A stretch of 64,000 bases of DNA, from the NCBI RefSeq assembly GCF_900182935.1, contig NZ_FXUE01000005.1, positions 124,001-188,000 on the forward strand, in the 5' to 3' direction. Made by a program: the position numbers and the translations under genes. The notes below the pieces were generated by a model. That model was not told where the DNA came from and did not search any database. It saw only the letters and a list, made by a program, of their open reading frames with translations. The stretch is from Fibrobacter sp. UWB10. Lineage in GTDB: Bacteria > Fibrobacterota > Fibrobacteria > Fibrobacterales > Fibrobacteraceae. Within the stretch, counting starts at the first letter, position 1. Every line of letters starts with the position of its first letter. Of this stretch, positions 51,294 through 52,598 are shown one piece after another.

Positions 51294-51324
51294 AGACCTC
51301 CGACGCTAGTCGGGGGCCTTTTTT
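51294..51324 (+). terminator. Rho-independent terminator after the CE15 gene
   Basis: An imperfect stem CCTCCGAC-GCTA-GTCGGGGG (51297-51316) is followed by CCTTTTTT. It separates the esterase from the mini-protein gene. Confidence 0.8.
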
Positions 51325-51369
51325 GCATATCTTTTTTGCATATTTTTATGCGTTTTGCCCTATTGAGCC

Positions 51370-51398
51370 TTGACAAAGCCCCTAAAATTTTCTCTATT
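51370..51398 (+). promoter_or_regulatory. promoter of the small basic protein gene
   Basis: TTGACA (51370-51375) is a consensus -35 box, and TCTATT (51393-51398) a fair -10 at 17 bases spacing, about 45 bases upstream of the ATG at 51441. It is the clearest promoter in the window and suits a highly expressed ribosomal-type gene. Confidence 0.65.
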
Positions 51399-51440
51399 TG
51401 GAGGCACATTTTTAAGTTTAACCCTTAACGGAGAAACAAC

Positions 51441-51536
51441 ATGCCTTGCGGAAAGAAAAGAAAGCGCAGGAAGATTGCGACTCACAAGCGTAAGAAGCGC
51501 CGTCGTCGTGACCGTCACAAAAAGAAACTTCGCTAA
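51441..51536 (+). CDS. 31-residue AURKAIP1/COX24-type ribosomal mini-protein
   Basis: This tiny gene encodes a 31-residue protein of which about two thirds are Lys or Arg, beginning MPCGKKRKRRKIATHKRKKR. It matches the short AURKAIP1/COX24 domain proteins (mitochondrial mS38 relatives) seen in Bacteroidota and their kin, which have the same GKKRKRxKIxTHKRKKR core and are thought to be ribosome-bound. The ribosome site CGGAG lies about 9 bases before the ATG, a good promoter lies upstream and a terminator downstream. It is short enough to be missed by most gene finders. Confidence 0.85.
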   Translation: MPCGKKRKRRKIATHKRKKRRRRDRHKKKLR

Positions 51537-51572
51537 TATCCGTTAGCATTCTATTGTGATTTCCTGTTAAAG

Positions 51573-51597
51573 ACGGAGTGTAAAAGCTCCGTTTTTT
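51573..51597 (+). terminator. Rho-independent terminator after the mini-protein gene
   Basis: ACGGAG (51573-51578) and CTCCGT (51587-51592) form a stem with an 8-base loop, followed by TTTTTT. It makes the mini-protein gene a single-gene unit. Confidence 0.85.
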
Positions 51598-51638
51598 AAT
51601 TTTTTTTGTTTTACGGGCTTGCCCAAAGGAATCAAAAA

Positions 51639-52598
51639 ATGATTGATCGCAACAAGCACTTCCTCCGCCTCATGGACTGGAGCGAAGAAAAAATCCTGGA
51701 AACTATCGAAATCGCTTCTCGCCTGAAGGCAGAAGTCCACGCCGGCAAGGTATCTGACCGCCTGCACGGCCAGAACATCGCCATGTTCTTCGAAAAGCCC
51801 TCGCTGCGAACTATCACGACTTTCCAGGTGGGCATGAACCAGCTCGGCGGCCACGCCGTGTTGCTCGCCCCGGATTCCATTGGCCTTGGCAAGCGCGAAA
51901 GCGTCAAGGACGTCGCCCGCTGCCTTAGCCGCTGGGTGAACGCCATCGTGGTCCGCTGCTTTAAGCAGGACTTGGTGGAACAGCTCGCCGAATACGGTAG
52001 CGTGCCGGTCGTGAATGCATTGACCGACGACTATCACCCGTGCCAGGCAATCGCTTTTGCCCAGATGATTTGCGAAAACCTCGGCGGTTTCAAGAACGCC
52101 GATGGTAAGCCGAAGACCGTCGCCTTCATCGGTGACGGCAACAATGTGGCCAACTCCTTCCTCGCCCTCGCCTCCAAGGTGGGTATGAACTTCACGCTCG
52201 CCTGCCCGAAGGGCTTTGAACAGCCCGCCAAGGTGGTCGAAGAAGCTCAAGAAGGCCTGAAGAAGCACGGTTGCCAGTACCGCGTATTCCACGATCCGAA
52301 GGAAGCCGTCAAGGACGCCGACATTCTTTATAGCGACGTGTGGGTTTCTATGGGTCAGGAAGGCGAAAAGGCTACGAAGCAGTCTCACTTCTTGCCGTTC
52401 CAGATCAACGACGAACTCTTGAAGCTCGCTCCGGCTCACTGCAAGGTCAGCCACTGCTTGCCGGCTCACCGCGGCGAAGAAATCACGGACTCCGTGATGG
52501 ACAACCTCGACGTGAACATGAGCTTTGAAGAAGCGGAGAATAGACTTCACGCACATAAAGCTGTATTATGGCAAGTGATGGAACCTTTTGCTAAATAA
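51639..52598 (+). CDS. argF: ornithine carbamoyltransferase
   Basis: The 319-residue enzyme makes citrulline from ornithine and carbamoyl phosphate in arginine synthesis. I start it at the ATG at 51639, with AAAGGA upstream. The carbamoyl-phosphate loop is FFEKPSLRT, the HPCQ motif is present (DDYHPCQAIA), and the ornithine-binding end is HCLPAHRGEEITDSVMD. It lies alone between terminators, with no other arg gene nearby. Confidence 0.95.
   Translation: MIDRNKHFLRLMDWSEEKILETIEIASRLKAEVHAGKVSDRLHGQNIAMFFEKPSLRTITTFQVGMNQLGGHAVLLAPDSIGLGKRESVKDVARCLSRWVNAIVVRCFKQDLVEQLAEYGSVPVVNALTDDYHPCQAIAFAQMICENLGGFKNADGKPKTVAFIGDGNNVANSFLALASKVGMNFTLACPKGFEQPAKVVEEAQEGLKKHGCQYRVFHDPKEAVKDADILYSDVWVSMGQEGEKATKQSHFLPFQINDELLKLAPAHCKVSHCLPAHRGEEITDSVMDNLDVNMSFEEAENRLHAHKAVLWQVMEPFAK

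Follow-up and report, generated by a model that had tools for sequence, protein, structure and literature searches.

The DNA analysed here, a 64,000-nucleotide stretch from Fibrobacter sp. UWB10 (hereafter the window), carries a short gene that encodes, with a probability of about 95%, the Fibrobacter bS22, a peptide that would bind the 30S subunit and be made from a short mRNA with a promoter of its own. The gene itself, its homology and its conservation are directly supported by the analyses described below.

51441..51536, forward strand: bS22 gene, 31 codons and a stop codon, encoding a small and very basic protein of the 30S ribosomal subunit (based on phmmer homology and phylum-wide profile matches).

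The reading frame starts with an ATG at 51441 and stops with a TAA at 51534-51536, and its 31-residue product begins with MPCGKKRKRRK. Lysines and arginines make up 20 of the 31 residues, the computed pI is ~12.0, and the expected mass is about 4.0 kDa. The first-pass annotation had proposed an ORF of this length at these coordinates, and we confirm it as a real gene. It is flanked by a glucuronoyl-esterase-like gene upstream (PF22244) and by an aspartate/ornithine carbamoyltransferase gene (PF02729/PF00185), which we take to be argF. In tblastn searches with these two neighbouring genes, argF was present at 38 of 76 loci, all within the genus, and the esterase at 8 of 76, many of these loci being short.

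The identity of the product was established by searching the PDB with phmmer. The single window sequence matches Borrelia bS22 (8fmw chain V, E 1.1e-7), chain 5 of the F. johnsoniae structure 7jil, named 'S22 | L38' (E 1.6e-7), and 9i5v_10, an 'AURKAIP1/COX24 domain-containing protein' (E 3.5e-6). These alignments span residues 1-28 or 1-29, i.e., nearly the full length, and the fourth and last hit up to E 10 is an unrelated polymerase (E 3.4). A ten-row profile gives E values of 1.7e-14 to 7.2e-13 for the three chains and no further match up to E 1. Because this profile includes the three PDB chains themselves, and hence contains its own targets, the single-sequence phmmer search is the independent evidence. 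The window protein has in common with the bS22 of F. johnsoniae and Borrelia a significant full-length similarity to a chain modelled in the ribosome, a free-standing and very basic product of about 28-33 residues, and conservation in its lineage in single copy, as is the case for other ribosomal proteins. The proposal of a ribosomal mini-protein of the AURKAIP1/COX24 type was therefore right as to type, given the matches to solved bS22 chains and the conservation. By its sequence, the window gene is a member of a known and structurally characterised family of ribosomal proteins, of which it is an ordinary extension.

An A/G-rich stretch easily opens a frame rich in arginine and lysine, so that the ORF might have arisen by chance and its likeness to the family might be merely compositional. 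The short length and strongly biased composition of the protein would fit this, as would a PF08213 score below the cut-off and the lack of an NCBIfam hit. Yet for each of the three solved homologues, 0 of 5000 composition-preserving shuffles scored as high as the real protein, whose scores lie 13-15 standard deviations high. Moreover, the conserved residues occur in the same order across phyla, and silent variation goes along with a near-constant protein. A chance ORF is thus extremely improbable, and conservation across the phylum (150 of 167 genomes) refutes it.

This conservation was assessed at two levels of sensitivity. The single-sequence search (E <= 0.001) finds matches in 69 of 100 genomes, the own genome included: 53 of the 60 relatives within the genus (in two cases truncated at a contig end), 15 of the 16 rows G061-G076 (2 from the same order, 13 from the same class, 1 from the same phylum), and 0 of the 23 other phylum-level rows. 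The seven genus genomes without a match at this threshold are all incomplete (69-90%) and one is also contaminated, so that gene loss cannot be told apart from missing sequence in these genomes. A profile of ten rows, seven of them from the window's phylum, finds matches (E <= 0.1) in 150 of 167 phylum genomes, again including the own genome, and in 87 of the 89 genomes of high quality; most of the deep-branching matches are weak. The 17 genomes missed by the profile are 7 from the genus, 2 from the family, 1 from the class, and 7 other phylum-level rows. G095 and G098, two high-quality genomes of the phylum from outside the genus, show no bS22 match even with the profile. The own genome has one match, and double matches occur in two rows only, G135 (two fragments at contig ends) and G076. 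For comparison, the benchmark ribosomal proteins bL34 and bS21 are found in 58 and 56 of the 61 genus genomes, respectively. The first-pass annotation had named a lack of conservation as what would speak against the gene; we found it conserved.

The protein hardly varies over 52 genus loci (H26Q in 4 and L30I in 9), and silent variation is found at codons 14, 17-21, and 25-27. Codons 1-13 (51441-51479) show no silent change in these loci, even among AGA/AGG arginines, while CGT/CGC are used later in the gene. In the same 25 genomes, 22 of 28 degenerate codons are invariant in bS22 vs 18 of 41 in bL34 (Fisher p 0.006); the start of bL34 is likewise invariant, so the bS22 start devoid of silent changes allows no firm conclusion. 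At one genus locus (L037), the protein runs on for seven more residues because its usual stop codon has been lost to a small deletion, which may be an error of sequencing or assembly.

The same protein is found far beyond the phylum. A DNA pattern of the first 19 codons, with a cysteine at position 3, matches at least 119 loci, which are a sample, and among the 119 matches listed every locus reaches a stop codon 28-33 codons in. These listed matches include 71 from Bacteroidota, 22 from Spirochaetota, 7 from Ignavibacteriota, 4 from Omnitrophota, 4 from Fidelibacterota, and 2 from Fibrobacterota, as well as one each from Actinomycetota, Caldifarciminota, Chlorobiota, Cloacimonadota, Rhodothermota, and Armatimonadota, and 3 without a phylum. 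At least 12 phylum labels therefore carry the pattern, six of them with more than one row among the matches listed. The labels with a single row may be mislabelled metagenome bins; the bin behind the Actinomycetota row bears the title Streptomyces griseus, and many Bacteroidota rows have exactly the same protein. The two Fibrobacterota rows (titled Fibrimonadales/Fibrimonas) have the same protein as L239, a relative from the same family as the window, which supports the earlier placing of the window near Fibrobacter. Several copies titled Spirochaetaceae or Treponema start with GTG (V), e.g., L087, L098, and L106, and a GTG start is likewise reported for Borrelia bS22 (excerpts of PMC10618245). 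Since the same protein occurs under at least 12 phylum labels, the link of Fibrobacter to Bacteroidota and mitochondria put forward in the first-pass annotation is not a special one. It was too narrow: the protein is also present in Spirochaetota, Ignavibacteriota, Omnitrophota, Fidelibacterota, and other phyla, its best match in the PDB is spirochaetal, and none of its PDB hits up to E 10 is an mS38.

The search with PF08213 (COX24_C), put forward earlier as a check, did not bear out membership in this family: the window protein scores 9.4 bits (E 1.3), under the cut-off of 23, and the model has no match in the own genome. NCBIfam gives no hit for the window protein or for four relatives. Two of the eight relatives scanned pass PF08213. 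The three of the MPCG type score 8.9 and 8.3 bits or have no match, and five sequences of another form, M[A/S]xVKK, score 24.0, 23.3, 20.6, 20.2, and 15.2 bits. This second form comes from deep-branching members of the phylum. As the 33 phylum-level matches other than G076 are weak (E 6e-7 to 0.02), 31 of them were fetched and read, with a script picking the most basic frame; G093 and G106 were left out, the latter having an in-frame stop. All 31 loci read (L203-L233) have the form M/V-[A/S]-[S/N/T]-V-K-K-x-R-[K/R]...HKRKK...RHKK. Judged from these sequences, the M[A/S]xVKK bS22 of deep-branching members comes closer than the MPCGKKRK form to the model of COX24/mS38.

The relation to mS38 itself is weaker. 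With phmmer, the window protein has four PDB hits at E values up to 10, and no mS38 chain is among them. One M[A/S]xVKK sequence aligns with PDB mS38 chains (SVKKKRKKKMNKHKYRK) at E 0.63 and 3.4, and a mixed profile gives 0.074 and 0.88; none of these values is significant. A link to mS38 via the intermediate M[A/S]xVKK forms is thus suggestive, weak, and below significance. Even so, one phylum holds sequences that resemble the Bacteroidota/spirochaete type as well as sequences that resemble the COX24 type, a modest evolutionary bridge. The MPCGKKRK sequences and the M[A/S]xVKK intermediates could help to build a single model joining bacterial bS22 and mitochondrial mS38.

These results bear on annotation. 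The claim that such genes are normally missed is plausible in that the window protein has no NCBIfam hit and Borrelia bS22 was unannotated according to excerpts of PMC10618245; on the other hand, relatives do bear the name 'AURKAIP1/COX24 domain-containing' (9i5v_10; PMC10085706, in part). Since the family models tried miss the window gene (none in NCBIfam, below the cut-off in Pfam), a ribosomal protein may be absent from the annotation of Fibrobacterota, and the description of bS22 across the phylum is useful in this respect. The authors of the Borrelia study expected bS22 in other bacteria and considered it hard to annotate (PMC10618245, in part). As a member from Fibrobacterota, bS22 is new as far as the open-licence literature searched reaches: we found there no paper describing bS22 in Fibrobacter, and PMC9976891 makes no mention of S22, bL38, or 'small ribosomal protein'.

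The gene is surrounded by putative signals for its own expression, which would yield a short mRNA ending at a hairpin 3' of the gene.

51370..51398, forward strand: promoter-like pair predicted from sequence, TTGACA (51370-51375), a 17-nt spacer, and TCTATT (51393-51398; 4 of 6 positions of the -10 consensus).
51430..51433, forward strand: Shine-Dalgarno-like GGAG within a conserved AACGGAG, 7 nt before the ATG.
51569..51596, forward strand: intrinsic-terminator-like hairpin with a T tract, from a hairpin scan, and the sole stem predicted when 34 distinct 3' segments are folded as an alignment.

A consensus -35 box and a good ribosome-binding site had been noted earlier, and both hold: TTGACA is exact and GGAG lies 7 nt before the ATG. 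Of 52 genus loci, 51 keep the pattern TTGACA-N15..19-TCTATTT, and all 52 have AACGGAG in the 25 nt before the start codon. Both are also present at the two genus loci cut by contig ends, which were counted apart. The window copy is the only exact match to TTGACAN{15,18}TCTATTTG genome-wide. Our promoter scan skipped the TTGACA/TCTATT pair because its -10 box has no A at position 2. At L012, a genus locus, the promoter pattern is gone and the upstream sequence is different, with a terminator-like palindrome, possibly the result of rearrangement or misassembly. The predicted terminator was also recovered, though the region shows no excess of such hairpins relative to shuffled sequence (3 found vs 4.0 expected). 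Farther from the window, nine loci from other genera of the family, hand-chosen among 29 same-family profile matches, have TTGACA in 8 cases, the full promoter pattern in 1, AACGGAG in 5, and CCGTTAGC, a motif past the stop codon, in 4. The corresponding numbers for 14 order and class loci (L066 of G076 left out) are 11, 1, 0, and 0. At L234 and L239, from two other genera, the sequence immediately downstream looks, by eye, like the start of a protein with VIATGNAGKV, presumably RdgB-like.

Conservation in the genus extends past the coding sequence. CCGTTAGC is found within 20 nt of the stop codon at 52 of 52 genus loci, and genome-wide the motif has one exact occurrence and one with 3 mismatches. 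It belongs to a 3'-UTR segment (51537-51565; CCGTTAGCAT...GTGATTTCC in the window genome) that is conserved across the genus and partly across the family, and that has complementarity to two places, the region of the stop codon and the ribosome-binding region (51426-51433, with UAACGGA).

51532..51547, forward strand: possible small hairpin that spans the stop codon and pairs GCUAA (51532-51536) with UUAGC (51543-51547), from the minimum-energy fold and inside the conserved 3'-UTR segment.

In the 40 nt past the stop codon, mean identity is 86% for bS22 vs 68% for bL34 (25 genus loci, same genomes); beyond these 40 nt the order is reversed (62% for bS22 vs 74% for bL34 at 41-90, 36% vs 69% at 91-150). 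The same 40 nt are 76% identical for bS22 vs 31% for bS21 in 9 genomes, those 9 of 30 fetched loci that the bS21 start pattern did not miss, and in these genomes the upstream region is more conserved in bS21 than in bS22. All four of the nine other-genus loci that have CCGTTAGC also have AACGGAG, and L239 has AACGGAG without CCGTTAGC. L241, from a related genus, lacks the conserved 3' motif; another hairpin (ATAAAATC...GATTTTAT) takes its place, covering the stop codon and the bases behind it.

The conserved block could in principle be mainly an RNA element, regulatory or a small RNA, to which the peptide would be secondary. The conservation of the 3'-UTR past the coding sequence is in line with this, as are the first 13 codons without silent change in 52 loci. 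Against it, none of the 14 order and class loci carry either CCGTTAGC or AACGGAG and the protein stays, and an Rfam search of 51300-51660 gives matches only far below the gathering score (best E 1.8). We give this explanation a negligible probability. Nor was the 3'-UTR element taken to be an RNA structure kept by selection: folding the 34 distinct 3' segments (59 loci) as an alignment predicts only the terminator stem and not the stop-codon hairpin, and no compensatory changes were seen by eye in the alignment for either 3'-UTR pairing. Since UCCGUUAGC is able to pair with either GCUAA in the stop region or UAACGGA, the ends of the mini-mRNA could switch between open and closed, and in Fibrobacter and the genera nearest to it the bS22 mRNA might regulate itself in this way, possibly by sensing free bS22. 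We consider such self-regulation unlikely.

Once made, the bS22 peptide would act as its homologues do. It would fold as a bent helix whose lysines and arginines pack into a pocket of the 30S RNA formed by 16S helices h2, h27, h44, and h45, and would touch the 23S rRNA across the subunit interface. By analogy with homologues, a position on the inter-subunit face of the 30S, against these helices, is very likely. The bound peptide would then make h44 more rigid at its top, close to the decoding centre, and provide a further contact between the subunits. Borrelia bS22 occupies the pocket of h2/h27/h44/h45 and contacts H68, and excerpts of the same study report no transposon insertions in its gene (PMC10618245); peptide mass spectrometry there failed to pick up bS22, which was nevertheless visible in the density. 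In C. acnes, bS22 lies in a pocket of h27/h44/h45 and forms a bridge to H67 (PMC10085706, in part). The mitochondrial counterpart, mS38, is described as stabilising h44, with both efficient ribosome biogenesis and the initiation of translation on some mRNAs depending on it (parts of PMC10618245, PMC10085706, and PMC6582356). A basic peptide might also act outside the ribosome, as an antimicrobial or by binding nucleic acids, instead of or besides a ribosomal role, and the C. acnes bS22 peptide indeed inhibits the growth of other bacteria and in vitro translation (PMC10085706, in part). The closest homologues are nevertheless ribosomal proteins in solved structures, and the ORF begins right at the conserved bS22 sequence, which would leave no room for an N-terminal export signal. 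We therefore regard an extra-ribosomal role as very unlikely and retain a 30S-bound bS22.

Among known systems, eL41 of eukaryotic ribosomes has been described in the same pocket as bS22 (parts of PMC10618245 and PMC10085706); it is shorter than bS22 and a single helix without a bend (PMC10618245, in part). The PF08213 family, with actinobacterial bS22 and mitochondrial mS38, has the common core KKxRKxK(I/M)xxHKxxK; two M[A/S]xVKK forms from the phylum exceed its cut-off, unlike the window protein. The mS38 chains matched by a relative are much longer proteins (128 and 137 residues), in which the matching segment lies near the C-terminal end. The bS22 of F. johnsoniae (7jil) and Borrelia burgdorferi (8fmw) have 79% and 75% ungapped identity to the window protein, respectively, and share with it a similar length, a very basic composition, and a free-standing small protein. 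In contrast to these, the genus forms have 31 residues, end with LR or IR, and have R-D at positions 23-24; the window gene starts with ATG, whereas that of Borrelia starts with GUG (PMC10618245, in part). In other respects, the finding agrees with the solved structures and with the prediction made by the Borrelia authors (excerpts of PMC10618245).
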